Source: Rhizobium favelukesii (GTDB taxonomy: Bacteria; Pseudomonadota; Alphaproteobacteria; Rhizobiales; Rhizobiaceae). From it: 64,000 nt of DNA. This document shows positions 16,180 to 50,205 of this stretch, piece after piece (position 1 is the first letter of the stretch; each line of letters starts with the position of its first letter). The translations under genes and the position numbers were made by a program. The stretch is from contig NZ_HG916854.1 in NCBI RefSeq assembly GCF_000577275.2, forward strand, positions 310,001-374,000. Reading direction: 5' to 3'. Below the pieces are notes generated by a model that was given only the letters and a program-made list of their open reading frames with translations, did no database searches and was not told where the DNA came from.

Positions 16180-16392
16180 CTAACAATAATAGACGCCGAC
16201 CGCGCAACGCCGGACCGTTCGGCGCGCCACTCCGGCAACGCTGTACGGCGTCAGCGGTCTGCCGACCCTGGCTTCTGCCGGGGTCACGATACCGTCTGGC
16301 AAGGGGATCGAAAGCTGCTCAGCAACCTCAAGCCCGGAAAATCCGACGGCCGCGGCAATTACAAGAACTCTCACCCGTTGAAACAGGGTCAT
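16180..16392 (-). CDS. Small exported protein, 70 aa, coupled to DUF2092 gene
   Basis: The start codon at 16392 overlaps the stop of the DUF2092 gene (ATGA), indicating co-translation. The product has a signal-like helix (VRVLVIAAAVGFSGLEVAEQ) and ends PYSVAGVARRTVRRCAVGVY. It is not assigned to a named family. The coupling suggests it works with the DUF2092 protein in the periplasm or at the membrane. Confidence 0.7.
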   Translation of the reverse strand: MTLFQRVRVLVIAAAVGFSGLEVAEQLSIPLPDGIVTPAEARVGRPLTPYSVAGVARRTVRRCAVGVYYC

Positions 16393-17195: not shown

Positions 17196-17263
17196 CGACG
17201 GAGGCCCTCCGAGCTGATCGTTGCAATCCGTCGAACTCTACAGTCGGACGGCGGGAAAGGCCC

Positions 17264-17283
17264 GTAACATCTGGTAGCATCTG
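17264..17283 (+). promoter_or_regulatory. Tandem 10-bp motif, site A
   Basis: GTAACATCTG and GTAGCATCTG are in direct tandem, with a single mismatch between units. The site points away from the DUF2092 gene it precedes, as do sites B and C for their genes. Orientation and spacing are the same type as at sites B, D and E. Confidence 0.65.
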
Positions 17284-33195: not shown

Positions 33196-34124
33196 ATGAA
33201 CATTCATAAGAATGCACGTCTGACACCATTGCGTCGAGAAGAAATGGCCGTCTCCGTTCTCGGCGGTACGCTATCGAAAGCGCAGGCTGCCCGCCTCTAT
33301 GGTGTCTCGCCAAAGATCGTGTCTCGCTGGGCCGAACGGTTTAGGATGTCGGGACGCGCGGGGATGATGGATCATTCGTCCCGCCCAAAACCAGTCCTCG
33401 GCAGGCGGATCAGGCTTTGTGCGAGCGCATTGTCCGTCTTCGAAGGCAGCGTCTGACGGGCAAGCATATCGCCATGGAAACAGGCGTCTCGCCCGCCACC
33501 GTCAGCCGTGTTCTCAGGCGAACGGGCTTGTCGCGGATGAAAGACATTGAGCCGGCGGAACCGATCGTACGCTACGAGTATGCACAGCCTGGTGGCCTGA
33601 TCCGTCTGGACATCAAGCGCCTTGGCCGCTTTGACCGCGTTGGTCACCGGATCACCGGCGACAGGACCGGCCAGAGCAATTCGCGAGGTGTCGGCTGGGA
33701 ATATGTTCATGTCTGCATCGACGATGCCTCCCGCATCGCCTTCACCAATATCTTCCCGGACGAAAAGGCCGTCAGCGCCATTGCCTTCCTCAAGGCGGCA
33801 GTCGCTTATTACGACAGCCTCGCCATCACGGTCACGCGGGTGATGACCGACAACGGCTCCTGCTACAAGGCCAAGGACTTCGCCAAAGCCTGCAAGGCGC
33901 TCGGCCTTAAGCACATCCTCACCAAACCCTACACCCTCATTCAGACCGCCTTGCGCGAATGGGCCTATGCACGTGCCTATCCTTCTTCAGAGCATCGAAA
34001 GGCGCATCTGCCCAACTGGACCCACATGTACAATTGGCATCGCCCTCACGGCAGTCTGAAATCAAAAACGCCAATCAGTCGCCTCGCCCTTAACCGAGAC
34101 AACCTGTTGAGGCTCCACATCTAG
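33196..34124 (+). mobile_element. IS481-family transposase, inactivated
   Basis: The first frame gives an N-terminal helix-turn-helix (RREEMAVSVLGGTLSKAQAA, RLYGVSPKIVSRWAERFR). A one-base loss in the CCCAAAACC run (33385-33391) shifts to the second frame, with ALCERIVRLRRQRLTGKHIA, a first Asp in VCIDDASR and a second in VMTDNGSCYKAK. The text then jumps from LTKPYT to LIQTALREWAYA. About 10 residues are missing that normally read PRTNGKAERF and hold the catalytic Glu. So both the frame and the DDE triad are broken. Its 3' end overlaps the SulP stop. Confidence 0.9.
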
Positions 34125-35946: not shown

Positions 35947-36777
35947 CTAGTGTGTCAGATCGGGCACAACGTTCCTGTGGCTTTGATCTTCGACATAGTC
36001 GTCCGGCCGCTTCTGGCGCTTGCCGAGATCGGGTTCGCGAAATTTAACTCGCTCGTAGGGGATCGATTTGAGTATGTGCGAAATGCAGTTGATACGGGCG
36101 CGCTCTTTGTCGTCCGACGGAACGAGCCACCAAGGCGCCTGCTGATGGTTGGTCTTGCGCAGCATCTCGTCATAGGCACGGGTGTAGTCCCACCATTTGC
36201 GGTAGGATTCGACATCCATCGGGCTCAATTTCCACTGCCGCAGCGGGTCTTCGATCCGCCGCTTGAAGCGACGCTCCTGTTCTTCCTCGCTGACAGTGAG
36301 AAAATACTTCAATAGGACAATACCGCTTTCAACGATTGCCGCCTCAAATCGAGGAGCAAGTTCGAGAAACCTCTGGGCTTTCTTTTCGCTGCAGAACCCC
36401 ATGACACGGTCGACGCCTGGACGATTGTACCAACTGCGATCGAAGATGACGATTTCCCCGGCCGCTGGCATGTGGGCAAGGTAGCGCTGCATGTACATCT
36501 GCGACTTTTCACGGTCGGTCGGCGCGGGCAGAGCAATCACACGAAACACACGCGGGCTCACTTTCTCGGTAATTCGTTTGATCATCCCGCCTTTGCCGGC
36601 GGCGTCGCGCCCCTCGAAGACGATCACGATCCTTGCCCCCGATTTCTTCACCCAGGCCTGCAGGTGCGCCAACTCCACCTGAAGCTTCTTTATCTCCTTG
36701 TCGTAGTTCCACGACTTGTCTTTCTTCGTTTTCTCTTCCGCGGGGGCTTCAAGGTCTAGGGCGTGCATTTTGGTCAT
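35947..36777 (-). CDS. ppk2: Polyphosphate kinase 2
   Basis: 276 aa from the ATG at 36777 with GGAGGG upstream. Walker A is FEGRDAAGKGGMIKRITEKV and the lid/Walker B region is EIVIFDRSWYNRPGVDRVMG. VESYRKWWDYTRAYDEMLRK and the PWWLVPSDDKERARIN segment are also class features. PPK2 enzymes use polyphosphate to phosphorylate GDP/ADP (or the reverse). It is first in an operon with SulP. The tandem motif, site B, lies 81 bp upstream, and the winged-helix/TPR regulator gene precedes it on the same strand. Confidence 0.95.
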   Translation of the reverse strand: MTKMHALDLEAPAEEKTKKDKSWNYDKEIKKLQVELAHLQAWVKKSGARIVIVFEGRDAAGKGGMIKRITEKVSPRVFRVIALPAPTDREKSQMYMQRYLAHMPAAGEIVIFDRSWYNRPGVDRVMGFCSEKKAQRFLELAPRFEAAIVESGIVLLKYFLTVSEEEQERRFKRRIEDPLRQWKLSPMDVESYRKWWDYTRAYDEMLRKTNHQQAPWWLVPSDDKERARINCISHILKSIPYERVKFREPDLGKRQKRPDDYVEDQSHRNVVPDLTH

Positions 36778-36857
36778 GGCTCCCTCCAAGTTGATCGGCT
36801 TCCGGGCAGGCACTCTCCAACGGAGAGGATGGTAGCGCTTTTGGAGACGATATGCCT

Positions 36858-36877
36858 GTAGCATCGCGTAGCATCTA
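36858..36877 (+). promoter_or_regulatory. Tandem 10-bp motif, site B
   Basis: GTAGCATCGC and GTAGCATCTA in direct tandem; the first eight bases are identical in the two units. The site is 80 bp before the ppk2 start codon and reads away from the gene, as at site A. Confidence 0.7.
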
Positions 36878-36925
36878 TGGCGGCAGCATGTGACGGACCG
36901 GCAGCGGCGCTGCAGGCCCAATCCC

Positions 36926-38734
36926 TCAGTGCGGCGGGACAGGGATCCCGGCTGCGCGAACCCCATCCAGAAAATGTTCGCGATCTTCAGCGCGTTGGAA
37001 ACGGGTCGATACCTCTTCGCGCACATTCAGGAGTATGCCCGGTGCATTTTGCTCGAACCATTCCCGTTCCATGCGAGCAGCCGCAATCTTGCCCTGCGCA
37101 CCGAGCGCGCTAAGGAGAACGAGATGATGGATTGGATTGTAACGGAGGTCCGCCATTCGTGCCCAAACTTCCGCGGCTTCATAGTCACCACGCATATAGG
37201 CGCAGGTGGCGAGCCCTACCTCGTAATATCCTATCGGGCCGTTGATGCGGGATATCGCGCTCGACAGCAGTTCGCACCCGCTCTCCCATTTGCCGGACAA
37301 TGCGAGTCTGAGGCCATACTCACCGGCCAGCTCGGTATCATTGGAATTGAGCGCGAGCGCCTCGGTACCTGTTCTGAGGGCCGCCTCGATGTCCCCCTTG
37401 AAAAAATACACCAGCATTTGCGCCTCCAACGCTCTCACGTTCTGGGGGTCCAGTGCGACGGCTTTTTCTGCGGCAATTTCCGCTCGTTCGAGCGACGGGC
37501 CTGGCGCCGTCTGTAACCTATATTGGAAGCGGACTTCGTCCACGTACGCCATGGAAAGAAGCGCCCAGAATGTCGAATATTGCGGGAACCGTTCCGTCGC
37601 GTGCTTCAGGCAGTCTCTTGCCAAAGCGTGCTTTTGGGGCTCAAGCGTCCCCCTGTAGGCGTAGTAGGCGAGCGTGCAGGCGTAGGAATCCCGGTCTTCC
37701 GGGAGCTGTTTGTCGATGCGGGCCGCATCGGTTTGAAAGACAATGCCAGACGGTTGCGCGATGGCCACGGCTACGCTTCTTGCCACATCTGTCTGGACTT
37801 CGAGCATTTCTCTGACACTGAATTGCTTGTCGTAGTTATTGGCCCAGATGACCGATCCGTCGGCTTTGTTCAGGAACCGAGTCGTCAAACGGAGCGTGTC
37901 GTCGTCCAGACGGACGCGGCCTTGAAGGATGTATCTTGCAGGCGATTGCCCGACCAACGAAGGTTCGGTTTCTCCTCGCGATCCGCCCGCTATGACAACG
38001 ATCTCCTTGAATTTCGACAACTGTCCGATGACCTCATCGGTAAGACCGCGGGCGATGGCGGCTGCCTGCGGGGAGCCAGAGAGGTCTTCGAAGGGTTCAA
38101 CGACGATCCGGGGCATGTCGACGCTGCTCAAATCGCTTCCAGGAGCGAGACGGACCAAACGCTCGATGTCCTTGACGGAAGACCCCACGAGGACGGTCCA
38201 CAGTAATAGTGCCAGAAGTAGAACGGCCGCCCCGAGTGCCGCCGCGATCCAGATCCAATTCCCACCCCGCCTAGGTACATTTTCGTCGTGGATTGACAGA
38301 TCCGGCTTGGTCGCGCGAGCAGGTTCAATCTCCTGACCGGGCGACACGTTCGGACGTGTATATCGGAACGCCGGTACGTAGCCGCCTTTCGGGATCGAGA
38401 TGAAAACGGGATCGTCCTGTCCAGCCACGAGATAGTAGCGCTCGAGCGCACGGCGCATCCGACCAGCCTCTATGCGGACCACAGGGTCGTTCTGTGCATC
38501 GAAGGAACTTTCGCGTCCAAACACTTCGAGGGCGATCGAGTAGGCTTTCAGCCGATCGGATCGTCCTGCAAGCGCTTCATTGAGAATGTAGGATACGAAG
38601 GCCCGAGCTCGGTTGGGCGCATGAAACTCCGGGCTCGACAGGATGCGGTCATACTGTGCGCGCACTTCCGCTTCCGTAGGAACGGAGACGTCTTCCGTGC
38701 CGTCTCGTGAGGCGCCCAGCATTGCCTTCCCCAA
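36926..38734 (-). CDS. Winged-helix/transmembrane/TPR regulator (CadC/adenylate-cyclase-like architecture without cyclase)
   Basis: 602 aa. Residues about 20-125 form an OmpR/CadC-like winged helix: FVSYILNEALAGRSDRLKAY, DPVVRIEAGRMRRALERYY as recognition helix, then VFISIPKGGYVPAFRY as wing. A single membrane helix follows near 165-190 (WIAAALGAAVLLLALLLWTV). The periplasmic part starts with a TolB-like segment (RIVVEPFEDLSGSPQAAAIA, YILQGRVRLDDDTLRLTTRF) and ends in TPR repeats (AEKAVALDPQNVRALEAQML). No cyclase or kinase domain is present. Direct-repeat sites with a 10-bp step suit this class of DNA-binding domain, and one such site lies in its own promoter. Confidence 0.85.
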   Translation of the reverse strand: MGKAMLGASRDGTEDVSVPTEAEVRAQYDRILSSPEFHAPNRARAFVSYILNEALAGRSDRLKAYSIALEVFGRESSFDAQNDPVVRIEAGRMRRALERYYLVAGQDDPVFISIPKGGYVPAFRYTRPNVSPGQEIEPARATKPDLSIHDENVPRRGGNWIWIAAALGAAVLLLALLLWTVLVGSSVKDIERLVRLAPGSDLSSVDMPRIVVEPFEDLSGSPQAAAIARGLTDEVIGQLSKFKEIVVIAGGSRGETEPSLVGQSPARYILQGRVRLDDDTLRLTTRFLNKADGSVIWANNYDKQFSVREMLEVQTDVARSVAVAIAQPSGIVFQTDAARIDKQLPEDRDSYACTLAYYAYRGTLEPQKHALARDCLKHATERFPQYSTFWALLSMAYVDEVRFQYRLQTAPGPSLERAEIAAEKAVALDPQNVRALEAQMLVYFFKGDIEAALRTGTEALALNSNDTELAGEYGLRLALSGKWESGCELLSSAISRINGPIGYYEVGLATCAYMRGDYEAAEVWARMADLRYNPIHHLVLLSALGAQGKIAAARMEREWFEQNAPGILLNVREEVSTRFQRAEDREHFLDGVRAAGIPVPPH

Positions 38735-38759
38735 GGCTTATTAAACCGCAAATGCACGT

Positions 38760-38779
38760 GTATCCTCGTGTATCATACA
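38760..38779 (+). promoter_or_regulatory. Tandem 10-bp motif, site C (regulator promoter)
   Basis: GTATCCTCGT and GTATCATACA lie 25 bp before the regulator start and also upstream of the divergent small gene at 38852. The close spacing, unlike the 62-81 bp at sites A, B, D and E, would fit self-repression. Confidence 0.55.
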
Positions 38780-38851
38780 TCTCTAAATAAACCACATGCA
38801 ATATGATGAGTTCGATAAGTCGATCGAGTTCGGCGTTGTCGAGGAGATGTG

Positions 38852-39157
38852 ATGGGATCGAGTTCAAACTATCCCGGTGCTATGTCAGGCCTTGCCATTG
38901 CATGCGCGCTTTTTCCTGCACGCGCACGAGAGATTGAAGTCTTGTTCGAGCGCAACGACAGCTTCAGAGGGCTCTGCGAGGACCTCGCCGCGGCGAACGA
39001 GGTACTCATGACAATCGATGGACTCCCGGTCGGCGTCCGTGATGCGAGGCGGCTTGAATACAAGGAGCTGATTTCGGGTCTTTCTACTGAAATCGAAGAG
39101 ATGTTGTCCCTTGCCAAGGTCATCCGAATACCGCGAAAGGATCGGCGCCCGACGTAG
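38852..39157 (+). CDS. Hypothetical protein, 101 aa
   Basis: Starts at ATG 38852 (GTG 38849 also in frame) after GAGGAGAT. The product is soluble and helical (ARAREIEVLFERNDSFRGLC, EDLAAANEVLMTIDG, YKELISGLSTEIEEMLSLAK) with a basic tail. It is divergent from the regulator gene and shares site C. The family was not recognised, though the helical layout suggests a small binding protein. Confidence 0.65.
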   Translation: MGSSSNYPGAMSGLAIACALFPARAREIEVLFERNDSFRGLCEDLAAANEVLMTIDGLPVGVRDARRLEYKELISGLSTEIEEMLSLAKVIRIPRKDRRPT

Positions 39158-39234
39158 TCCCGGTTGCTAACAGGCGTCGCGCTTGCGGAGTGAGCCTTTT
39201 GATCCACCACCAAACATAGAGGAATACTCGGCCA

Positions 39235-39600
39235 ATGTTTCGTATATCGATCTGGAAAATCCTCGGCTTAAGCCCCACTCCAACGAGGATCGCAATGTTA
39301 TTTGCTGCCTGCGCCTCGGTCCCGTTCTATCCCGTCGGCTATTCACAAGCCGCGGGCAATCAGTTCAAAGACTTTCCGTTCGTGATCGGTTGTGAATACA
39401 AGGGTATGTTCCACGCTTTTTTCCTCTCGAGAATAACGCCTGACGGACTGGCGACCTATGTCGCATCGGAACGGATTGCGGGTACGATTTCTCTGGATGG
39501 GCACGCAAAGGCGGTCGGCGAGCAGAAGGGTGGGACATGCGTGGGCAAGACACTCGAGGAACTGCGCAATTCGGGCCAAGCTCACTATCTACAGCCCTAG
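39235..39600 (+). CDS. Exported hypothetical protein, 121 aa
   Basis: A hydrophobic N-terminal part (TPTRIAMLFAACASVPFYPV) ending near YSQAAG looks like a signal peptide. The mature part (NQFKDFPFVIGCEYKGMFHA, FFLSRITPDGLATYVASERI) has two Cys. It lies between the regulator cluster and the DUF3300 operon. The function is unknown. Confidence 0.65.
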   Translation: MFRISIWKILGLSPTPTRIAMLFAACASVPFYPVGYSQAAGNQFKDFPFVIGCEYKGMFHAFFLSRITPDGLATYVASERIAGTISLDGHAKAVGEQKGGTCVGKTLEELRNSGQAHYLQP

Positions 39601-39780
39601 GGCTTACGTTTCGTCCAACGCAGGAGGGGGGCGGGGCGGCGACGGGCGTGCCATGCGTTTGTCGAAGGCGCGACCGAAGGGCTGGCGACAGGCAGTTGAA
39701 AGCTGTCCGCACCACCGGCGAGTGAGCGTCTATACCAATTTCGCCAGACGCAAGCGAGGCTGCCATCCCTACGGCCTGAT

Positions 39781-39800
39781 GTATGTTCCCGTATGTTACG
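39781..39800 (-). promoter_or_regulatory. Tandem 10-bp motif, site D
   Basis: On the plus strand GTATGTTCCC and GTATGTTACG; read on the minus strand it is CGTAACATAC then GGGAACATAC. It ends 62 bp before the DUF3300 start. A possible -10, TATAGT (39823-39828), lies 22 bp downstream, so a bound regulator would sit next to the -35 region. Confidence 0.65.
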
Positions 39801-39862
39801 CCGTCAATCCAAGTGCCTCTTGTATAGTTTCAAGCCGTGCCAATCGAAGGAGGCCGATACCG

Positions 39863-41308
39863 ATGCGAAGATCATTCAGGCTTTTGGTCGGATTGTCGGC
39901 CCTGGCGATCATATCGATACGACCGGATATGCCCGTGCACGCACAGGTGCCCACGCCGACGGCAAAACCGTCGGCCGAAGAGCCAGCCGAAACGGAAGGC
40001 GACCTCCTTGACGAGGAGGAACTTGAAGTCCTCGTGGCCCGCATTGCGCTTTACCCGGATGACCTGGTGGCGGCGATTTCCGCGGCGTCGCTTTTCCCGT
40101 TGCCGATAGTCGAGGCGGCACGGTTCCTCGAGGCGAAGAAGAAGGACGCCGATCTCAAGCCCAAGGACGACTGGGATGGGAGCGTCATCTCGCTCCTGAA
40201 CTATCCCGATATTGTCAAGATGATGAGTGAGGACCTCGATTGGACCCAATCGCTGGCCGATGCACTCACGAACCAGCAGAAGGATGTGCTGATCGCCATT
40301 CAGCAGCTTCGCGACGAGGCAGTGGCAAAGAACATCATCAAGACCGACGACAAGGTCACGGTTGTCATGGAGAACGAGAACGTCGTCATTCGACCGACTG
40401 ATCCGGAGAAGGTTTATATCCCGCAGTACCCGCCGGAGATGCTCTATGAACCGGGTTACGCGGTCGAGCCGATCTCCTATTACCCCGACCCTTACGACAA
40501 CTACTATTATCCAGGGGCCGGTTTCTTTGCAGCGGCGGTAACCGGCGTTGCATGGGCGGCCGTCGTCAACTGGGACGATTGGGGCGTATGGGGTGGCGAC
40601 TGGCGTGGTGACGTCGATATCGACTGCAACAACTGCTTCAACGACCGGAACTTCAACGGCAAGGTCAACTGGAACGACGTCGACTGGACCAAGGTGGACC
40701 GGAGCAAGTTGAGTATCGGAAAGGATCAACTCGCTAACATCGATCGGTCGGCGATCAAGTCCAGTCTGCAGTCCGACAACCGCAATCAGCTCAAGAACAA
40801 GGTCAGCGACCGGCAAGCAAATCGAGGGCCAGGAGCCAGGGACGTCGGCGCCCGTGCTAACGACATCCGCAAGGGCACGGTCGAAGGCCTGAAGGCAAAT
40901 CCGAGAGCGGGGAACGCTGCGGCGAACCGGCCCGGGACACCGCGCCTTGATGCCCGCCCAGGCAATGTGGCCAACCGCCCGGATGCCCGGCCGGGGAATG
41001 CGGCCAATCGCCCAGGTAATGTGGCAAACCGTTCGTCAAGGCCGGCCGGCAAGGTCAACAGGCCAAGCGCACCGAAGATGGCGGCACGACCCGACAATCG
41101 CTCGCGTCAGCCAAGCGCCCTTGGCAACGTGCAGTCCGGTCGGCGTGAAGCGGTTGCTTCCAAGCGGGGAGGGCAGAGCATGGGAGGCGGACAACGCGGC
41201 GCGCCGCGCGCGGCGGCACAGCGCTCACGCCCAATGCCACATGGCGGTGGCGGGGGGCGCGGCGGTGGTCGAGGTGGCGGCGGTCGCGGGGGTGGCGGTC
41301 GTCGGTAA
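39863..41308 (+). CDS. DUF3300 secreted protein with repetitive C-terminus
   Basis: 481 aa from the ATG at 39863 with AAGGAGG upstream. A signal peptide (RLLVGLSALAIISIRPDMPV) is followed by the DUF3300 core: ARIALYPDDLVAAISAASLF, SLADALTNQQKDVLIAIQQL and VYIPQYPPEMLYEP. The C-terminal third is basic, low-complexity and repetitive (RPGNVANRPDARPGNAANRP) and ends in a Gly/Arg-rich tail. Such tails often bind polyanions or the envelope. It forms an operon with DUF2950, a pairing seen in other bacteria. Confidence 0.92.
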   Translation: MRRSFRLLVGLSALAIISIRPDMPVHAQVPTPTAKPSAEEPAETEGDLLDEEELEVLVARIALYPDDLVAAISAASLFPLPIVEAARFLEAKKKDADLKPKDDWDGSVISLLNYPDIVKMMSEDLDWTQSLADALTNQQKDVLIAIQQLRDEAVAKNIIKTDDKVTVVMENENVVIRPTDPEKVYIPQYPPEMLYEPGYAVEPISYYPDPYDNYYYPGAGFFAAAVTGVAWAAVVNWDDWGVWGGDWRGDVDIDCNNCFNDRNFNGKVNWNDVDWTKVDRSKLSIGKDQLANIDRSAIKSSLQSDNRNQLKNKVSDRQANRGPGARDVGARANDIRKGTVEGLKANPRAGNAAANRPGTPRLDARPGNVANRPDARPGNAANRPGNVANRSSRPAGKVNRPSAPKMAARPDNRSRQPSALGNVQSGRREAVASKRGGQSMGGGQRGAPRAAAQRSRPMPHGGGGGRGGGRGGGGRGGGGRR

Positions 41309-41343
41309 TGTTTTCCAGCCTCTCGGATTTCCGGAGATAAACC

Positions 41344-42279
41344 ATGAGACTACAGTTGAGATTGATCGCGCTGCTGCTCGGAACGGCACTATCCGTAGCC
41401 ATTGCAGCCCCATCCGTGGCCCAGATGCAGACGGATCTTTCGGAGTTCGAGGCGGGGACGCCGCCATCGTTCGACGATCCCTCGGCGCTGCTTGACCGGC
41501 TCAAGGCCGTGCTGAGTGCCAACGATATCGACGGTTTGGCAACTCTCCTTGGCCTGGACGCGGCCAAGCTGCGCTCCAGCAAGGAGGCCATGGTAAGCTA
41601 CGGACTGATCCGCGAGGGTGCTGCGCGGCAATTGCGACTTCAGGATCTCGGAGATCGCAAGATCGTTGCCGTGGGGGACGTGTTGTGGCCTTTGCCGTTC
41701 CCCTTGTCGAAGGACAAGGACGGCAAGTGGGCTTTCGACACGGAGGTTGGTCTGCAGGAGATCATCAATCGCCGGGTGGGCCAGAACGAGCTTACGACAA
41801 TTCAAACGATGCATGACTACGTGCTCGCTCAGGACCAGTATGCTCAAATCGACGAGGACGAGGATGGCGTCTACGAGTTCGCTCAGCGGCTGATCAGCAG
41901 CCTCGGCAAGCGGGACGGCTTATATTGGGAGCCCGGTCTGTTCGATGAGGAGAGCCCGGCCGGACATCTGATAGAGACGGCGGCTTTCGGCAAGGCTAAG
42001 CGTGGCGAAGGGTACTATGGATATCGCTATCGTATCTTGACCGCCCAGGGTTCCAACGTGATTGGCGGCAAGCAGAATTACATCGTCAATGGCAACATGA
42101 CAGCCGGATTTGCCTTGATCGCGTGGCCGGTGACGTATCGCGTGACCGGGGTGCAGACGTTCATCGTCAACGGCGCGAACATCGTCTATGAGCGGGATCT
42201 GGGGCCGCAGACGGAGCAGCGGGTCTCAACGATCAAGGAATTCAATCCGGATGATAGCTGGACGATCGTGCGCGACTAG
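41344..42279 (+). CDS. DUF2950 secreted protein
   Basis: 311 aa with a signal peptide (LIALLLGTALSVAIAAPSVA then Q). The family core includes GLQEIINRRVGQNELTTIQT, YVLAQDQYA, SLGKRDGLYWEP and GYYGYRYRILTAQGSNVIGG. It lies 35 bp after the DUF3300 gene and the two are almost certainly co-expressed from site D. The biochemical role of either protein is not established. Confidence 0.93.
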   Translation: MRLQLRLIALLLGTALSVAIAAPSVAQMQTDLSEFEAGTPPSFDDPSALLDRLKAVLSANDIDGLATLLGLDAAKLRSSKEAMVSYGLIREGAARQLRLQDLGDRKIVAVGDVLWPLPFPLSKDKDGKWAFDTEVGLQEIINRRVGQNELTTIQTMHDYVLAQDQYAQIDEDEDGVYEFAQRLISSLGKRDGLYWEPGLFDEESPAGHLIETAAFGKAKRGEGYYGYRYRILTAQGSNVIGGKQNYIVNGNMTAGFALIAWPVTYRVTGVQTFIVNGANIVYERDLGPQTEQRVSTIKEFNPDDSWTIVRD

Positions 42280-42301
42280 CCATAGAGGCAGGCTCCTGAG
42301 G

Positions 42302-42321
42302 CGTATGCTACCGTATGATAC
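42302..42321 (-). promoter_or_regulatory. Tandem 10-bp motif, site E
   Basis: Plus strand CGTATGCTAC then CGTATGATAC; minus strand GTATCATACG then GTAGCATACG. It ends 69 bp before the ATG at 42391. A possible -10, TATCCT, lies at 42334-42339. Confidence 0.7.
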
Positions 42322-42390
42322 CGTCCGCGACCTGTATCCTACTGCCCACTGCAGGTTATCGGGCCTATCATCCGGCGGTTTCTTGGAGGT

Positions 42391-42867
42391 ATGGCGATGG
42401 CAAAGGGTGAAGCAACTGGCACCAATCCTGCCGCAATGAGTGCGGAAGAACTGAGAAAGAAAGCCTTGGAACTGAAGCTCGCGGAGATGGAGCGCGAAGA
42501 CAAGATAAAATCACGGGAGGCGAAGAAGCATTCCGAGTTTGTCGAAGACTTCTTCCGCAAGCATATAGGCGACGACGAACGTGCCGTTATCAGGCGCGTA
42601 GTGACAAAGGCGGCCGCGGACGGAAAGTTCGAGGCCATGGTCTACAGCTTTCCATCCAGCTTCTGCACCGACAGCGGCCGGGCCATCAACAATAATCTCC
42701 AAGGGTGGCAGAACACGCTGCAGGGCAAGGCCAAGGAGGTTTACGAGCTGTTCGAAACCGTAGGAAGACCACAAGGCTACACGCTAAAAGCAGTGGTCAT
42801 CAATTATCCGGGAGGCATGCCGGGCGACATCGGTTTCTTTTTAGGCTGGGAGCCGCCGCTGGAGTGA
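42391..42867 (+). CDS. Hypothetical protein, 158 aa
   Basis: A charged coiled-coil N-terminus (AEELRKKALELKLAEMERED, KIKSREAKKHSEFVEDFFRK) is followed by a compact domain (DGKFEAMVYSFPSSFCTDSG, INNNLQGWQNTLQGKAKEVY, LKAVVINYPGGMPGDIGFFL). No transmembrane segment. The stop overlaps a GTG (42864) in frame with the CYTH gene, indicating coupling. I do not recognise the family. Its promoter carries site E. Confidence 0.8.
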   Translation: MAMAKGEATGTNPAAMSAEELRKKALELKLAEMEREDKIKSREAKKHSEFVEDFFRKHIGDDERAVIRRVVTKAAADGKFEAMVYSFPSSFCTDSGRAINNNLQGWQNTLQGKAKEVYELFETVGRPQGYTLKAVVINYPGGMPGDIGFFLGWEPPLE

Positions 42868-42917
42868 CCACAGACGAGGCAACGCCACAAGCTGCGAAAC
42901 CATTCGGAACGGGCGCA

Positions 42918-43451
42918 ATGAAGACGATCGAGATCGAACGGAAGTTCCTGGTGCGCAACGATGACTGGCGCGCGAGCGTGACTTCGTCCCACGAAATTCG
43001 CCAGGGTTACCTGACCCGCGGGCGCGAGAATTCTGTAAGGGTTCGTACAGTCGACGGTCTGTCGGCACGGCTGACCGTGAAGTTCGGAAAACGGGGCCTC
43101 AGCCGTGAAGAATACGAATACGACATACCCTACGCAGAAGCGGTCGAGCTCCTCTCCCACGCAATTGGCGGCATCGTCGAAAAGACGCGCTACACCGTGC
43201 CACATCGTGGGGTCGTATGGGAGGTCGACGTTTTCGGTGGCAGGCATGACGGTCTGACGATTGGCGAAATCGAACTGAACAGCGAGGAGAGCAACCCTTC
43301 AATTCCAAAATGGCTTAGCAGAGAAGTCACCGGTGACAAACGATACTCCAATCGATCATTGGCGACGAGCACACTTGCGATCGCCCTGAACGCTGGTTCG
43401 CCTGCCACAACGACCGCTCGGCAGAAACCGTCCGGTTCCTATCAGGACTGA
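42918..43451 (+). CDS. CYTH-domain protein (inorganic triphosphatase-like)
   Basis: 177 aa from the ATG at 42918; a coupled GTG at 42864 would add 18 residues. The N-terminal EIERKFL motif (ExExK) and later RVRTVDGLSARLTVKFG, REEYEYDIPYAEAVEL and WEVDVFGG, GLTIGEIELNSE form the acidic and basic tunnel of CYTH enzymes, which hydrolyse inorganic triphosphate or related compounds. It sits 6 kb from ppk2 in the same regulated cluster, so a link to polyphosphate metabolism is plausible. Confidence 0.9.
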   Translation: MKTIEIERKFLVRNDDWRASVTSSHEIRQGYLTRGRENSVRVRTVDGLSARLTVKFGKRGLSREEYEYDIPYAEAVELLSHAIGGIVEKTRYTVPHRGVVWEVDVFGGRHDGLTIGEIELNSEESNPSIPKWLSREVTGDKRYSNRSLATSTLAIALNAGSPATTTARQKPSGSYQD

Positions 43452-43523
43452 ACTCGCTGATCGCTACGGCGTGCGCCGACGATAGCGCCCGCACCAGCCC
43501 TTTTATGTAGAGGAAGGCAAAAT

Positions 43524-45209
43524 ATGGCTCCGTCGCAGGGTGCTGACCAATCTCTGTCGCTGCACACAGACCCCCGGCTGGATCTTGTTGCCGGCCTCAC
43601 GGCGGCCGCGGTCGTTCTGCCGAAGGCCATGGCCTACGCAACCGTCGCCGGCCTGCCGGTGAGCGTCGGTCTCTACACCGCCTTCGTACCGATGATCGTC
43701 TACGCATTCCTTGGTACTTCGCGGGTCCTGAGCGTCAGTTCAACGACCACGCTCGCCATCCTCACGGCCACCGAACTCGGACTGGTTGTGCCGGACGGCG
43801 ACGCAGGCCGGTTGATCACCGCGACAGCCACGCTCACTGCCCTCACAGGCCTGCTCCTGATGGCGGCCTCGGTCCTGCGGTTTGGATTCGTCGCGAACTT
43901 CATTTCCTCGCCGGTGCTGACCGGCTTTAAGGCGGGCATCGGGCTGGTGATCGTCCTGGATCAGGTGCCGAAGCTTTTTGGCCTCCACATCGCGAAGGAA
44001 GGGTTCTTCCGGGATGTTCTAAGCCTCGTCCATCATCTCCCCGAGGCGTCTGTTCTCACGGCTGTGATCGGAGCATCCGCACTTGTCCTGTTGCTGGTCA
44101 TGGAGCAGATCTGGCCGCATTCGCCAGCCCCGCTCGCGATCGTCGGCGGCGGTATCGCTATATCATGGCTGGCGGGGCTCGGCGCGGCTGGCGTCTCGAC
44201 AGTGGGCTTTATTCCGCAGGCGCTGCCGTCGTTGACGTTTCCTGACGTGGACATGGTCGTCCAATTGCTGCCGGGGGCGATTGGTATCGCACTGATGAGC
44301 TTTACCGAGACGATTGCCGCCGGCCGCGCCTTCGCGGCGCCGGCCGAGCCTCCGATCAGAGCAAACCGGGAGCTTCTGGCCGATGGCGCTGCAAACCTTG
44401 CCGGGGCATTTTTCGGCGCGATGCCTGCGGGAGGCGGCACGTCGCAGACGGCCGTTGTTCGTGCCGTGGGAGGACGGACACAGAAGGCCTCGCTCGTCAC
44501 GGCAGCGGTCTCCGCCGCCACGATGCTGATCCTGGCCCCACTGCTTGGGCTCCTGCCGCAAGCAGTGCTAGCGGCCATCGTGATCGTTTATTCCATCGGT
44601 CTGATCCAGCCCGGCGAGTTCAGGTCGATCCTCAAGGTTCGACGGATGGAGTTTCTATGGGCGCTCGCCGCCTTCTTCGGCGTGCTGTTGTTCGGCACCC
44701 TTCAGGGCATCGTCGTCGCCATCGCCCTTTCTCTTGTCGCTCTGTCCAGGCAGGCGGCCAATCCACGGATCCATGTCATAGGCCGCAAACCAGGCGGGGA
44801 TGTCCTGCGTCCGGTTTCATCGGAGCATCCCGATGACGAGACCTTCGACGGATTGCTGATCGTGCGGCCGGAGGGCAGGCTGTTCTTTGCCAACGCCCAG
44901 CAGATCGCGGACCGGATCGGCGGATTTGTCGCTGAGGCGAAACCCAGTATTCTCCTGCTCGATCTCAGCGGCGTCTTTGATATCGAATATTCGGCGCTTC
45001 AGATGATGATGGAGAGCGACCAACGTCTCGCAAAGCAGGGGGTCGGTCTTTGGCTCGCGGGCCTCAATCCGGATGTCCTTGCCTACGTTCGGGCGTCGGG
45101 ATTCGCCGACCGGCTCGGCCGGGACCGCATGTTTGCGACGGCGGGCGCCGGCATCCGCCATTACCAGGACAACGCCCAGCCCCTAACAGAACGCACCGCA
45201 AAAACGTGA
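43524..45209 (+). CDS. SulP-family anion transporter with STAS domain (second copy)
   Basis: 561 aa. DPRLDLVAGLTAAAVVLPKA is the SulP entry signature, followed by about ten helices. NRELLADGAANLAGAFFGAM and FGTLQGIVVAIALSLVALSR are conserved. The STAS domain starts near 450 (EGRLFFANAQQIADRIGGFV, FDIEYSALQMMMESDQRL). It differs clearly from the copy at 34-36 kb, so it is not a recent duplicate. It may follow on the CYTH transcript (72-bp gap). Confidence 0.9.
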   Translation: MAPSQGADQSLSLHTDPRLDLVAGLTAAAVVLPKAMAYATVAGLPVSVGLYTAFVPMIVYAFLGTSRVLSVSSTTTLAILTATELGLVVPDGDAGRLITATATLTALTGLLLMAASVLRFGFVANFISSPVLTGFKAGIGLVIVLDQVPKLFGLHIAKEGFFRDVLSLVHHLPEASVLTAVIGASALVLLLVMEQIWPHSPAPLAIVGGGIAISWLAGLGAAGVSTVGFIPQALPSLTFPDVDMVVQLLPGAIGIALMSFTETIAAGRAFAAPAEPPIRANRELLADGAANLAGAFFGAMPAGGGTSQTAVVRAVGGRTQKASLVTAAVSAATMLILAPLLGLLPQAVLAAIVIVYSIGLIQPGEFRSILKVRRMEFLWALAAFFGVLLFGTLQGIVVAIALSLVALSRQAANPRIHVIGRKPGGDVLRPVSSEHPDDETFDGLLIVRPEGRLFFANAQQIADRIGGFVAEAKPSILLLDLSGVFDIEYSALQMMMESDQRLAKQGVGLWLAGLNPDVLAYVRASGFADRLGRDRMFATAGAGIRHYQDNAQPLTERTAKT

Positions 45210-45233
45210 TTTAGGTGCCGCACGGAGGAGCCT

Positions 45234-45485
45234 TTGTCAGCCGGAAACGTGCGTGATTGGCCTTTGATGGGCGAGCGCCTCTATGCCGCATGGAGCCTTG
45301 CATCCAGCAATTTTACCGAATTGCTCAAACGGGTTCGAGCCCGCCCTGTTGGAAACGTGCGGCTTTGTTTGGGCAAGGTCGCCAGCGTCGGTCTGGGGTT
45401 GGTGAGCTTCGTCGCGTCAGTGATCATCGCCGGCCGCAGGCACCAACTGCTGGTATCACGTGAGGCATTGGCGACAAACGGCTAA
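45234..45485 (+). CDS. Possible small protein, 83 aa
   Basis: A TTG start follows GGAGGAG by 5 nt, 24 bp after the SulP gene. The product has one hydrophobic stretch (VASVGLGLVSFVASVIIAGR). The coding nature is supported mainly by the good RBS. The family is unknown. Confidence 0.35.
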   Translation: MSAGNVRDWPLMGERLYAAWSLASSNFTELLKRVRARPVGNVRLCLGKVASVGLGLVSFVASVIIAGRRHQLLVSREALATNG

Positions 45486-45543
45486 ACCGCAACGGCGGCC
45501 AGCGCGATGCCAGATCACCAAGAGAAGTCCGGCAACCGACCAT

Positions 45544-47700
45544 TCACGTGGATCCCGCAGCGATCGCTGCGTTGTGCGTTGCGAGCGTCTGCTGGGCCGC
45601 GGCGGCGACGCTGTCGTCCTTTCCGCCTGAGACCTGCACCGTGGGCACCGCGATCTTGATGCCGTTCTCGTTGAATGCCTGATGGATCATCCGCAGAGCG
45701 CGCCGCTTCAGCGTGAACTGCTGGCCGGGCTGCGTCATGACCTTCATTCGCAGCAGAAGTCCAGAGTCGCCCAGACTGTCGATGCCCTGCATCTTCAGCG
45801 GTTCAATGGTGGTCGGCTTGAATTCCGGATCCTCGAACAGCTCCAGACCGATCTTCTTGATGATCTTGCGCGCCTTGTCGATATCGGCATCGTAGGTCAC
45901 AGTAATCGTCATCTTCTCGATTACCCAGTCGCGGCTCAGGTTCTGAACCGCGCCGAGTTCGCTGAAGGGGACGATATAGACTGCACCGCGATGATGTCTA
46001 AGCTTGATGGACCGCAGGCTGAATGACTCGACGTTACCCTTGTAACTGCCGCTCTGGATGTATTCTCCAACCCGGAACGCATCGTCTAGCAGGTAGAACA
46101 TTCCGCTGATGACGTCCTTCACGACCGTCTGCGCCCCGAAGCCGATGGCGACGCCAACGACGCCGGCACCTGCGATCAACGGTCCGATTTCAACGCCGAG
46201 CGACGACAACGCCATCATGATCGCGATGGCGGCGAACAGGATCATCAGGACATTGCGCAGGATGGGCAGCAATGTCCTAAGGCGCGTCCGACGCCGTTCC
46301 TGCTCGCTACCAATCGCGAGGACCGCTTCCGTGTCGCCGAGTCTGCGATCGATCAGGACCTTCACGACGCTCCAGGCAAGATCCACGACCATGAGAATAA
46401 TCCCGGCGCTCAACACACCACGGATCAGCCGCAGGGCGGGGGAGTCCTGCATCGTCATTCGTGTTAGCTCGACGTTGAGCATATCCGCGAGAAAGACGAT
46501 CGCGCCGATGATCAGGACGGCGCGTATGCCGCGCTCCACGATCACCGATGCGACGGTGCTTTTTCTGCTTTCCTCTTCCATATCCGCGCTATGCAGAATG
46601 TTGTTTACCGCGGCCCTGGTGAGGGCGATCGCTCCCGGCAGCGCGGCGCACACGACGATGATCCAGAACAGCTTCGTAGCGCCGACCACCCATAGCAGCC
46701 AGACTGCGGCAAAATAGGCGGTCCAGAGGCAGTTCCGGGCACGAATGCCAATTCGACCCGACCGTGGAGTTTGAGAGAACACAGAAGGACGTCGCCAAAC
46801 GGCTTCGATGCCGATGATGAGGAGGACAACGCCAAGCGAGTAGGCCACGAGCTGGCGCGCGTGAACGGAAAAGCCAAGACTGCCGAGCAGATGGATGGTC
46901 ACCCAGCCGAAGGCATACCAACCCACAGCATATCCGAGCCGCCTTGCCCAATGAGCGGCGACCTCGTCCGAGACGGGTATAAGGCGAAATTGATTTTGTG
47001 CCAGCCGATGGGGGGCGAGGATCACGTCGAAGACGGCACTCGCAAGGCGGAAGACGACGACGGCAAACAGGTAGCCGACGACGATCTCGCGGACGAGCGG
47101 CGGCCACTCGAACACAAGGAAAAATCCGATGCTGCCCAGCCCGAAGGCCAGAACGTAGCAGACGGCCCAAAGCAGTCTTGCCCCCACGGCTACCAGTCTC
47201 TCTCTCACGGTGAAGATGGGCGCGCGCGACATCCACAGGCGCCATCCGGCGCTCGAACGCCAGAACACCCATTGTGCGGCGAGCCCTGCGACGACAAAGG
47301 CGGCGATGAGGAAGATTGGTCGCGTACCGCCGTTCGCTTCGACGTCGCGCTCGAGGACGGCCGCCCCACGCATCGTCTCTGTGGGAAATGACCGTGCCGC
47401 TAAAAGCATCGCGCTGGTATGGGTGCGAAGGCGTGTTGTGACCTCGCTGAAGGAAACGTGCGTGTCCCTGGCCTGCGTGGCTGGTTCGGGCGTCGCCCGC
47501 GCCGCGGCAGCCTGCTGCTGGAGAAAAGTCTGGACGGCGGGATCGGCGAACATCGCTAAGAACCGTTGAACGCTTTCCGGCTGCGAGATGGGAGCTGGCT
47601 GGCTCTGCGCGGCCGTCGAAACAGCCATGAGGGCAACCAGCATGAAAGCCGCTGTACGGACCATGCTTCGAACCCAGGCAAAATTCGGGATTGCTGCCAT
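45544..47700 (-). CDS. MscS-family mechanosensitive channel (large type)
   Basis: 718 aa. A signal peptide (AAFMLVALMAVSTAAQSQPA) and a periplasmic region to about 130 precede multiple helices. The MscS core near 500-650 reads LIAGAGVVGVAIGFGAQTVV, KDVISGMFYLLDDAFRVGEY then the beta domain with SLRSIKLRHHRGAVYIVPFS and NLSRDWVIEKMTITVTYDAD. The Gly/Ala-rich pore helix is intact. Large MscS proteins release solutes on hypo-osmotic shock. Site F lies 303 bp upstream on the same regulatory pattern. Confidence 0.93.
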   Translation of the reverse strand: MAAIPNFAWVRSMVRTAAFMLVALMAVSTAAQSQPAPISQPESVQRFLAMFADPAVQTFLQQQAAAARATPEPATQARDTHVSFSEVTTRLRTHTSAMLLAARSFPTETMRGAAVLERDVEANGGTRPIFLIAAFVVAGLAAQWVFWRSSAGWRLWMSRAPIFTVRERLVAVGARLLWAVCYVLAFGLGSIGFFLVFEWPPLVREIVVGYLFAVVVFRLASAVFDVILAPHRLAQNQFRLIPVSDEVAAHWARRLGYAVGWYAFGWVTIHLLGSLGFSVHARQLVAYSLGVVLLIIGIEAVWRRPSVFSQTPRSGRIGIRARNCLWTAYFAAVWLLWVVGATKLFWIIVVCAALPGAIALTRAAVNNILHSADMEEESRKSTVASVIVERGIRAVLIIGAIVFLADMLNVELTRMTMQDSPALRLIRGVLSAGIILMVVDLAWSVVKVLIDRRLGDTEAVLAIGSEQERRRTRLRTLLPILRNVLMILFAAIAIMMALSSLGVEIGPLIAGAGVVGVAIGFGAQTVVKDVISGMFYLLDDAFRVGEYIQSGSYKGNVESFSLRSIKLRHHRGAVYIVPFSELGAVQNLSRDWVIEKMTITVTYDADIDKARKIIKKIGLELFEDPEFKPTTIEPLKMQGIDSLGDSGLLLRMKVMTQPGQQFTLKRRALRMIHQAFNENGIKIAVPTVQVSGGKDDSVAAAAQQTLATHNAAIAAGST

Positions 47701-48003
47701 GTTTCTATCCTGTCCTGACTGCTAGCGCGCCTCCTGCGAACGAATGCCGGCAGTCATTTGCCTCCCGTTCCCAATCTGCTCACCTGGATCGCAAAATTGT
47801 CTCTGGTGTCGGCATCGATGACTGCGAGTTCAGCTATTCATTGGCGTCGTCGCGCGTGATCTCCTCGGCCTTCAACGTGGCCAAGTCAGTGCTCACTTTG
47901 TTCCTCGCGTGGTCAATCCGACATAACCCGCTTCGTTTCCGCCCACCGCGGGTGTCAACTCGAGCCCTGAGGATAAACTATGCGAAAACGTGAAATCTTA
48001 CCC

Positions 48004-48023
48004 GTAGCATCACGTATCTTACA
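48004..48023 (+). promoter_or_regulatory. Tandem 10-bp motif, site F
   Basis: GTAGCATCAC and GTATCTTACA, oriented as sites A-C, i.e. for a gene on the minus strand. The MscS gene starts 303 bp away. A 20-codon minus-strand reading frame from GTG 47896 with GAGGA upstream lies between and may be a leader peptide (uncertain). Otherwise 47701-48003 shows no gene. Confidence 0.5.
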
Positions 48024-48277
48024 GCCTTTGGCCGGTCCTATCGAGGCTGCTGGCCCGAAGGCGCTCGCCGTTATGCCTCGCTGGATCAAGGTTGCATCCT
48101 GACGATATTCCGGCCCTCGCGATGTGCGTCGTCTGGCGGCCGTGATCTCGACGTCTCCGGCCAATCCGTGGTCTCTGTGAAGGCCGAACCAGGATGGACA
48201 CCGCCGCTTCCAAATGTCGGCGTCAATCGCGTGCATAGCCTGCTTCCGTTCCTCCGCCCACGCATGGTTCGCGGGCC

Positions 48278-48297
48278 AGTATGATACCGTAACATAC
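48278..48297 (-). promoter_or_regulatory. Tandem/palindromic motif, site G
   Basis: AGTATGATAC and CGTAACATAC; the whole also forms an inverted repeat (AGTATG…CATACT). It ends 74 bp before an ATG at 48372, the same spacing as sites B, D and E. That reading frame (MDEGVALATRR) appears degraded, with a coding-like tail in another frame (PALVAALSREIEEALDVGAA). The intact gene at 48532 follows. 48024-48277 shows nothing recognisable. Confidence 0.5.
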
Positions 48298-48531: not shown

Positions 48532-48978
48532 ATGGCAGAAGAAATTCACCCAGCGGCAATCGAGCATTTGCCGATTTTCATCACTCCGCCCGGCCAGACG
48601 GACTACCTTTTCGTTGCCATCGCCATCTTCCTTTTGCTGGCGGTGCTTGCCGTTGGCAATTTATACTTTCAATTGCACGCCCTTCCTGAACGCAGGGCCC
48701 ACCGCACGAACAAAGTACAAATGGAGATCGTGGCCGTCCTGGCGCTCATCTCGCTGTTCACCCATAACCATATCTTCTGGATTGCCGGTCTGCTCCTGGC
48801 CTTCGTTCAGTTTCCCGACTTCTCGACCCCGCTTTACTCCATCGCCCAATCCCTCGGCAAACTCTCCGGCCGCACGGCTGAAATGACAGGTGATGATGCT
48901 CTGATTCCCGAGGATCCGGGGGACGCCGTGGCGACGCAGCCGCCGACCAAGACCAGCGCGCATGGAGAGGACATCTGA
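48532..48978 (+). CDS. Small inner-membrane protein paired with HlyD-type protein
   Basis: 148 aa from the ATG at 48532. Two to three helices: YLFVAIAIFLLLAVLAVGNL, MEIVAVLALISLFTHNHIFW, IAGLLLAFVQFPDF. The C-terminus is polar. The layout and the partner resemble the YiaW/YibI-type small proteins that accompany HlyD-like proteins in enterobacteria. The stop abuts the ATG of the HlyD gene, so the two proteins are made together. Confidence 0.8.
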   Translation: MAEEIHPAAIEHLPIFITPPGQTDYLFVAIAIFLLLAVLAVGNLYFQLHALPERRAHRTNKVQMEIVAVLALISLFTHNHIFWIAGLLLAFVQFPDFSTPLYSIAQSLGKLSGRTAEMTGDDALIPEDPGDAVATQPPTKTSAHGEDI

Positions 48979-50205
48979 ATGTTTGAGTTGATGCTCTGCT
49001 CCATGTTGACGATTTTGCCCGATTATCTTTTCCGACGGTACGGTCAGGGAAAGCGGATCGGCCGCGAGATCACGCTTTATACGGTGTGGTACGAGCTCCG
49101 GTGGGGGATCACCGCCTGCTTGCTTCTGACCGTATCGCTGATCACGATGATCTTTTACTTTCACCCTTCGACCAAGAGCGTCACGGCGATATTCCGGACG
49201 GTCACGATCCTGCCGGAGGCAACCGGACGTGTAGAAGAGGTTTTCGTTGGACTGAATCAGAAGGTCGTGGCAGGTGCGCCACTCTTCCGGCTTGATGCGT
49301 CCGAACAGGAGGCGGCGCTGGAGACCGCCCGTCGGCGCATTGCCGAAGTCGAGGCCGAGATGAAGGTGACCCAGACCGAGCTCGCAGGCGTGGACGGCCA
49401 GATCAAAGAGGCGCAGGGCGCCTATCAGACGGCCGTCGACGAATACGAGATGAAGGCCGAGCTCCTGACGAGCAACGCCGTCGCCAGGCGCGAGGTCGAA
49501 CGCCTAGCGACGCAGATCGACAGCCGTAAGGGAGCGCTCGAGGCAACGATTGCGAAAAAGCAGACCATGGAGACACAGATCTCCTTGCTGTTGCCCGCGC
49601 AAAAAGCAAGCGCCGAAGCAGCCTTGGCACAGGCGCAGGTCGAATTCGACAAGACCATCGTTAGGGCAGGCGTCACGGGGACCGTCCAACAGTTTACGCT
49701 CCGTCGCGGCGACGTCGTCAGTGCAATGTTGCGTCCTGCCGGTATCCTTGTGCCAGAGGGTGCTGGACAAGGCACGCTGATTGCCGGCTTCGGGCAGATC
49801 GAAGCGCAAGTTATGAAAAAGGGGATGATCGCCGAAGCAACCTGCGTTGGGAAGCCATTTACAATCATTCCAATGGTCGTGACCGAAGTGCAGCAGGTTA
49901 TCGCCGCCGGACAACTGCGCGCCACGGAGCAACTGATCGATGTTCAGCAGATGGCGCAGCCGGGAACCCTGACCGTCTTTCTACAGCCCCTCTTTGCCGG
50001 AGGGCTAGATGGCGTCCCGCCGGGAAGCAGTTGCATCGCCAACGCCTATACCAACAATCACGATGCACTCGCTGATCCGAATATCGGCACGCTTAGGGGG
50101 TTTTCCCTGCATATGATCGACGCCGTCGGACTTGTGCATGCGATGATCCTGCGAATGCAGGCTGTGCTGCTTCCTGTCCAGACACTCGTTCTGTCGGGGC
50201 ATTAA
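48979..50205 (+). CDS. HlyD-family membrane fusion protein
   Basis: 408 aa. A cytoplasmic start and one inner-membrane helix (GITACLLLTVSLITMIFYFH) are followed by a biotinyl-lipoyl half (VTILPEATGRVEEVFVGLNQ, KVVAGAPLFRLDASEQEAAL), a long coiled coil to about 210, and the second lipoyl half (VRAGVTGTVQQFTLRRGDVV). No inner-membrane pump or outer-membrane channel gene is adjacent. It could serve a pump elsewhere or act with the small membrane protein alone, as proposed for YiaV/YibH. Confidence 0.9.
   Translation: MFELMLCSMLTILPDYLFRRYGQGKRIGREITLYTVWYELRWGITACLLLTVSLITMIFYFHPSTKSVTAIFRTVTILPEATGRVEEVFVGLNQKVVAGAPLFRLDASEQEAALETARRRIAEVEAEMKVTQTELAGVDGQIKEAQGAYQTAVDEYEMKAELLTSNAVARREVERLATQIDSRKGALEATIAKKQTMETQISLLLPAQKASAEAALAQAQVEFDKTIVRAGVTGTVQQFTLRRGDVVSAMLRPAGILVPEGAGQGTLIAGFGQIEAQVMKKGMIAEATCVGKPFTIIPMVVTEVQQVIAAGQLRATEQLIDVQQMAQPGTLTVFLQPLFAGGLDGVPPGSSCIANAYTNNHDALADPNIGTLRGFSLHMIDAVGLVHAMILRMQAVLLPVQTLVLSGH

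Follow-up and report, generated by a model that had tools for sequence, protein, structure and literature searches.

A tandem promoter box that accompanies a CadC-like membrane regulator in Rhizobium favelukesii and related bacteria

Introduction

Seven short repeats lying between genes in a 64,000-nucleotide stretch of Rhizobium favelukesii DNA (contig NZ_HG916854.1, positions 310,001 to 374,000; hereafter the window) raise two questions, namely what they control and which protein reads them. An earlier note on this DNA had described the sites, A to G, as two GTAnCAT units repeated with a 10-bp step, and had proposed that they mark a new regulon, with the OmpR/CadC-like winged-helix protein of the gene at 36926-38734 as its reader. 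Predicted folds and co-occurrence across genomes support that proposal. The sites very likely serve as operators through which a family of membrane-anchored one-component regulators of the CadC type controls a regulon; an activator model is favored. The box itself is a real promoter element and very probably marks a gene-control system of rhizobia. Three corrections to the first description are nevertheless due: the box has two forms, with spacings to the -10 hexamer that differ by one helical turn; this genome encodes three members of the paralogous family to which the regulator belongs; and a known rhizobial element, the K-box, is a near look-alike.

Seven intergenic sites in the window

The contig of the window (760 kb) corresponds to pT136c, a 758-kb plasmid whose host, Rhizobium sp. 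T136, comes from a Melilotus nodule; the two are identical in the pieces compared, except for a 3-bp shift near the DUF2092 gene. All seven sites are found where the earlier note had placed them, and in the annotation of pT136c none of them touches a gene, even though coding sequence makes up 77% of the stretch. When up to two mismatches are allowed, the two-unit GTAnCAT pattern matches the window eight times, i.e., at the seven sites, with G matching on both strands. The mean over 100 dinucleotide shuffles of the window was 1.52 matches, and eight were reached in 0/100. Across the whole genome (7.57 Mb), 11 matches with up to one mismatch were obtained against 6 for the reversed pattern, and 7 of the 11 fall inside the 64-kb window; perfect copies number four, three of them in the window, and the control has 0 at this stringency. 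The shuffles, the genome-wide control and the counts for the 46-bp promoter pattern given below led us to reject a chance repeat as the source of the sites.

Both GTAnCAT units are exact in A, B and E only; C, D, F and G are each one base off. The common orientation relative to the downstream gene, noted before for A, B, D and E, extends to C and F, and G is indeed more palindromic, being a near-palindromic box of the second class described below. The earlier note put A, B, D and E at 62-81 bp before the start codon, a fair range given distances of 69, 81, 63 and 76 bp, respectively. The value for A applies to the open reading frame (ORF) start at 17195, which GGAGG precedes, and becomes about 135 bp with the pT136c start; E is also 70 bp from an ORF start at 42391. 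C, F and G fall outside this range, with distances of 38, about 360 and about 235 bp. Taken together, A, B, D, E and F are strong sites, G is a good one and C is doubtful.

Class 1 boxes stand at a fixed distance from the -10 hexamer

Conservation was assessed in 80 loci that encode relatives of the window regulator, taken from rhizobia and their neighbors. In 1.6 Mb around these homologues, the pattern with up to one mismatch yielded 72 sites against 6 reversed controls. A set of 71 non-redundant sites was picked by the box alone, the -10 region having no part in the selection. Read in the direction of the gene, the box of this form (class 1) is ATGnTAC-N3-ATGnTAC, and downstream of it the bases T, A and T are conserved in 58, 58 and 52 of the 71 sites. 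A TAnnnT hexamer starts exactly 23 nucleotides past the box (N23) in 47 of the 71, and at any other offset from 5 to 79 in no more than two. These 47 sites, together with the intergenic position of 7/7 window sites, favor a placement of the box in promoters over one inside genes. With the hexamer set at -12 to -7, a class 1 box covers about -52 to -36 and abuts a -35 region that departs from the consensus, as 38 of the 47 N23 sites match TTGACA at two or fewer of six bases (best of three spacings). A box abutting a non-consensus -35 is the arrangement expected of an activator.

At zero or one mismatch, the 46-bp promoter pattern matches A, B, D and F and nothing else in the whole genome; at up to three mismatches, 28 matches were obtained against 41 in the control, i.e., no excess. 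A weight matrix of 51 columns was built from 55 sites. It left out the seven window sites and all sites of six loci (L024, L034, L092, L094, L096 and L111), in total 16 of the 71, real-looking sites of L024 and L034 among them. In a scan of 1.72 Mb, on part of which the matrix had been trained, 104 sites were found against 0 controls, and they are spread over 63 of the 80 loci. In the held-out window, site B scored best (44.9), followed by A (36.1), F (23.4) and D (16.3), against 9.5 for the best reversed control; C, E and G all scored below 8.

A second form of the box

Sites E and G and their relatives have a different form, GTAnnnTAC-n-GTAnnnTAC (class 2), in which the ends of each unit are self-complementary. 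A search of 1.75 Mb, almost entirely DNA flanking regulator genes, gave 42 class 2 cores and 0 controls; in the whole R. favelukesii genome, the core is present at six places against 0 controls. Twenty of the 42 have a third GTAnnnTAC unit 12 nucleotides past the core, and the inner TAnnnT of this unit forms a -10 hexamer at N13, one helical turn closer than in class 1; TAnnnT is found at N23 in 7/42 and at offset 44 in 17/42. The third unit may be no more than an extended -10, or it may serve in repression. Of 148 genomes of the genus, 72 contain the 42-bp class 2 promoter with up to two mismatches, for a total of 86 matches as against 2 for the control. Site E carries it in full, with 0 mismatches, and is the sole match of that pattern in this genome. 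A further class 2 box, C61:201047-201065, precedes a sulfatase gene, next to which lies a gene that by eye is FMN-dependent monooxygenase-like. It is the only class 2 site of the genome far from a regulator paralogue (146 kb from the window regulator), and its sulfatase belongs to the family that follows a box in Kaistia.

The box goes with the regulator across genomes

At least one regulator homologue (E<=1e-60) is present in 104 of the 148 genomes of the genus. Genomes with a strict class 1 or class 2 box have one in 81 of 83 cases, as against 23 of 65 for genomes lacking a box, and those with the 42-bp class 2 promoter in 71 of 72; these counts include related, non-independent genomes, so P values are indicative only. 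Strict boxes in genomes without the regulator, a finding which the earlier note had held to speak against its proposal, are confined to two exceptions, namely G018, with the variant site GTACCATACGGTACCAT, and G092.

Box and regulator gene also lie close together. At least 70 of the 86 class 2 sites are within 30 kb of a regulator gene and at least 45 are within 300 bp, 37 of these 45 before its start and 8 behind its stop; among perfect class 1 sites, at least 43 of 63 are within 30 kb. The 30-kb counts are lower bounds because the list of regulators is incomplete: the copies used for distances exclude a group at about 430-447 bits, except in G144, and the class 1 count rests on a subset of the listed copies plus two from a family-wide search. 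Sites in G031 and G065, for example, adjoin paralogues of 38-39% identity (L101, L107). An even draw of 297 family genomes gave 16 matches to the 46-bp class 1 promoter (up to one mismatch) against 13 controls, hence no overall enrichment. Twelve of these 16 come from the 36 genomes whose regulator homologue is strong (E<=1e-100; 3 controls in this set), and all 12 lie within 20 kb of the regulator; the remaining 261 genomes hold 4 matches against 10 controls.

The ends of the regulator genes were surveyed in 75 of the 80 loci, the partial matches L086-L088, L090 and L091 being excluded. Counting the best matrix match in the 0.5 kb around the end of the gene if its score exceeded 12, a box was found 1-132 bp behind the regulator stop in 20/75 loci against 0/75 reversed controls. 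Out of 53, such boxes score 28.8 in Kaistia and 22.2 in Bauldia, which are the clearer cases, and 14.3 in Bosea and 12.9 in Microvirga, which are weak. The gene that follows varies (ppk2, DUF3302-HlyD-SulP-ppk2, DUF2092, DUF900 or sulfatase); the box goes with the regulator, not with the target gene. On pSymA of Sinorhizobium meliloti 1021 (1.35 Mb), one perfect 46-bp match precedes an AI-2E-type transporter gene, 1.4 kb from a regulator homologue; at three mismatches, pSymA has 5 matches in all against 7 controls and thus no excess. A 17-mer, GTATCATTGAGTAACAT, was seen once each in G021, G023, G040, G051 and G101 and is not near any listed regulator; it looks like an unrelated conserved element.

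The regulator and its paralogues

The window regulator is predicted to consist of a winged helix (residues about 16-128), a hydrophobic helix and a periplasmic TolB-N-like/TPR domain. The N-terminal domain resembles the PhoB/CadC DNA-binding fold with moderate scores (top Foldseek match PhoB 1gxp, E 0.13). A PDB sequence search with a winged-helix profile returned nothing credible (best E 0.21), and Pfam Trans_reg_C (PF00486) has no match in the window protein and matches weakly in 3/33 homologue N-terminal domains (best E 0.099). One long helix (160-194) contains a hydrophobic stretch in both sequence and model. In a comparison of the full model with the PDB, the first four places went to the CadC periplasmic domain (E 6e-7 to 2e-6), with low TM-scores (about 0.4 of the target) and TPR proteins close behind. 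Databases call members of the family hypothetical, TolB-like or adenylate cyclase, and one cluster named from S. meliloti holds 188 member sequences.

Besides the window gene, this genome has paralogues at C59:3711760 (54%) and C59:3130785 (43%), and each of the three has a box within about 110 bp of its 3' end. Site B lies 51 bp behind the window gene; the class 2 box C59:3713556 lies 36 bp past the last matched base of the second copy; and the box C59:3132588 (matrix score 34.3; 3 mismatches to the 46-bp pattern) lies 106 bp past that of the third. Within 20 kb of a paralogue are 5/6 class 2 sites of the genome and 4/4 of its best class 1 sites. A group of paralogues at about 44% lacks the box. 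The 43% paralogue is part of a second small cluster (G000:C59:3123873-3134614) with MscS, a Cys-rich-repeat protein, a DUF1254/DUF1214 gene and several boxes.

In many Rhizobium loci (L037-L080 and their relatives), a box 0.9-2.1 kb upstream of the regulator precedes a gene for a FixJ-like response regulator or a PAS histidine kinase, and the same loci often hold a second, divergent CadC-like paralogue (about 40% identical). Since the regulator in some species stands behind a box and such a gene, feedback is plausible. In the window, the placement of site C just before the regulator gene makes autoregulation possible; its sequence has no TAnnnT at N13 or N23.

Genes behind the boxes

Many of the 80 loci share parts of one module in varied order, its members being DUF3300-DUF2950, ppk2, SulP, DUF900, DUF2092, the conserved gene o42391, CYTH, an HlyD-like gene, MscS and a Ca exchanger (see the table for those in the window). 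Matrix sites stand before at least nine unrelated gene families, on which ground the spread of one operon's box along with that operon was rejected. DUF900-like genes come after a box at 12 sites in other loci. In the relatives L101, L107 and L109, the box and DUF2092 gene known here from site A have a CadC-like paralogue next to them; this local copy seems to be missing in R. favelukesii, where a Fic-domain gene (18231-19226, +) lies beside site A. According to the annotation, 20470-21374 holds a toxin-antitoxin pair, in which an Xre/MbcA/ParS antitoxin-like gene comes before the gene of a RES-domain NAD+ phosphorylase.

Some module members have been met in other contexts. One report states that DUF2950 and DUF3300 showed significant induction in each of the two RNA-seq studies that it used on symbiotic nitrogen fixation, and that their neighborhood gave no functional hint (PMC4653623). 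The DUF3300 gene of Escherichia coli, yacH, is an entry in a table from a study of CpxR targets (PMC9600279).

Table 1. Boxes, -10 hexamers and genes of the window. Positions are those of the window; pT136c marks gene calls from that plasmid.
Feature	Position	Strand	Remarks
DUF900 alpha/beta hydrolase	14815..16128	-	ORF; PF05990; downstream of DUF2092
DUF2092 gene, putative target of A	16389..17195	-	ORF; Pfam PF09865
-10 hexamer TAGAGT of site A	17235..17240	-	23 nucleotides past box
Site A, class 1 box	17264..17280	-	0 mismatches; 46-bp promoter pattern 0 mismatches; before DUF2092 operon
SulP anion transporter	34121..35839	-	PF00916, STAS; pT136c; downstream of ppk2
ppk2 (polyphosphate kinase 2), putative target of B	35947..36777	-	PF03976; start from pT136c
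-10 hexamer TACCAT of site B	36829..36834	-	
Site B, class 1 box	36858..36874	-	0 mismatches; between regulator stop and ppk2
CadC-like membrane regulator, proposed box reader	36926..38722	-	"membrane protein" in pT136c annotation
Site C, degenerate box	38760..38778	-	1 mismatch; 38 bp before regulator start; weakest site
Site D	39783..39799	+	1 mismatch; 46-bp pattern 1 mismatch; before DUF3300
-10 hexamer TATAGT of site D	39823..39828	+	N23
DUF3300 gene	39863..41308	+	PF11737; pT136c
DUF2950 gene	41344..42279	+	PF11453
Site E, class 2 box	42303..42321	+	GTAnnnTAC-n-GTAnnnTAC
Third GTAnnnTAC unit at E	42334..42342	+	overlaps -10 TATCCT (42335-42340), N13 past box
Conserved gene o42391, putative target of E	42397..42867	+	no Pfam match; conserved in module
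CYTH-domain gene	42918..43451	+	PF01928; pT136c
Second SulP transporter	43524..45209	+	PF00916
MscS-family mechanosensitive channel	45544..47643	-	PF00924 and others; pT136c
-10 hexamer TAGTTT of site F	47975..47980	-	N23
Site F	48004..48020	-	1 mismatch; 46-bp pattern 1 mismatch; before MscS
Site G, near-palindromic class 2 box	48279..48297	+	
Small gene o48523	48532..48978	+	pT136c; before HlyD
HlyD-like membrane fusion protein	48979..50205	+	NCBIfam EmrA/MdtN-type matches, below cut-offs

Discussion

In the model that we favor, the periplasmic TolB-N-like/TPR domain would sense a condition of the envelope, and the cytoplasmic winged helix, probably as a dimer, would bind both units, which are set 10 bp apart, from the same side of the DNA. 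Bound next to the -35 region, the regulator would contact or recruit RNA polymerase and thereby activate promoters that have no consensus -35 and would be weak alone, from about -52 to -36 at class 1 boxes and one turn closer at class 2 boxes with N13. Its targets would form an envelope/ion/polyphosphate module made up of DUF3300-DUF2950, ppk2-SulP, DUF2092-DUF900, o42391-CYTH-SulP, MscS and the HlyD operon (DUF3302-HlyD in relatives). The nature of these genes, which encode a channel, anion and cation transporters, periplasmic DUF proteins and a polyphosphate kinase, suggests that the signal concerns the envelope or ion state.

Related systems share single features with this one. Response regulators of the PhoB/OmpR type have a winged-helix fold to which the predicted N-terminal domain is similar at moderate scores, and their boxes are tandem repeats spaced about one helical turn; unlike them, the window regulator shows no match to a receiver domain (Response_reg) and carries a hydrophobic helix together with a C-terminal domain like that of CadC. 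Its best structural matches are to the CadC periplasmic domain; Trans_reg_C gave no match. CadC of E. coli prefers AT-rich DNA, recognizes few bases specifically and occupies two sites head-to-head (PMC5430869), in contrast to the two sequence-specific tandem units that abut the -35 here. The open-access papers searched contained no described regulon with this box and no rhizobial regulator of this type.

The closest known element found is the FxkR K-box, GTTACA-N4-GTTACA, likewise a rhizobial direct repeat with a 10-bp step (PMC4999443, PMC7888657). Its half-site GTTAC resembles the gene-oriented half-site GnTAC of the box, perhaps because both proteins use a similar fold. This likeness, and the loci in which the box precedes a FixJ-like response regulator gene (by Pfam) or a PAS-kinase gene (by eye) ahead of the CadC-like gene, would fit a box read by another regulator encoded nearby or elsewhere, such as FxkR, ChvI or a FixJ-like/PAS kinase pair, which we consider quite unlikely. 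FxkR is a response regulator whose K-box is stated to lie at -62 before fixK genes (PMC4999443, PMC7888657). The K-box pattern with up to one mismatch is absent from the window (0 matches) and stays below its control in the genome (4 against 17), and when the box matrix is applied to a pRL9 stretch that contains genuine K-boxes, no score exceeds 0; on the pattern scan and the pRL9 score, the K-box was rejected as the identity of the box and is a neighbor in type, not the same regulon. The best FxkR homologue (63%) and one K-box-like site are both located on a different contig, C5. The ChvI (ExoS/ChvI) regulon of alphaproteobacteria also has envelope-linked targets in rhizobia, but the published S. 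meliloti box, N-GCC-N8-GCC, differs (that of Caulobacter is TTGC-N3-GCAA; PMC9731502); the ChvI box was rejected because the conserved columns of the 71 sites lack it in a comparison of consensus by eye only. What the compared loci have in common is the CadC-like gene; as they were fetched by this gene, independent support for it as the reader comes from the genome-wide tests.

Two further readings concern the kind of element and the sign of control. A sigma-70-family sigma factor is annotated at 25247-25759 (-), between the DUF2092 operon and the ppk2 cluster, and the fixed spacing to the -10 hexamer would suit a promoter element of such a factor in place of an operator. We regard this as very improbable, for the box stops at the point at which a -35 should start (N23), is made of two repeats in helical phase and is found at N13 as well, whereas a sigma factor requires one fixed -35/-10 spacing; in addition, the presence of the box tracks the CadC-like regulator (the sigma factor was not searched for in other genomes). 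Alternatively, the CadC-like protein may bind the box as a repressor released by the signal, or may activate some promoters and repress others. The third unit over the -10 of class 2 promoters, which in the 42-bp pattern is present by design, and the 37 nearby class 2 sites that stand before the regulator's own start would agree with such control. At class 1 promoters, however, which lack a consensus -35, the box is located upstream of the -35 region, the typical arrangement of an activator, and repression or mixed control appears unlikely.

Implications for rhizobial biology

We give about even credence to a broader reading, in which a family of transmembrane transcription factors occurs across Rhizobiaceae and neighboring families, binds through a DNA-binding domain not recognized by Pfam to a modular GTAnnnTAC/ATGnTAC operator placed at whole helical turns from the -10, and switches a mobile envelope/ion/polyphosphate module that includes the symbiosis-induced DUF3300 and DUF2950. 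If true, envelope sensing would be linked to symbiotic nitrogen fixation. The finding would also give a common but unrecognized rhizobial protein family a probable function and a DNA target and would tie together genes whose function has so far not been assigned, making the role of the envelope DUF genes, and the stimulus to which they respond, directly testable.

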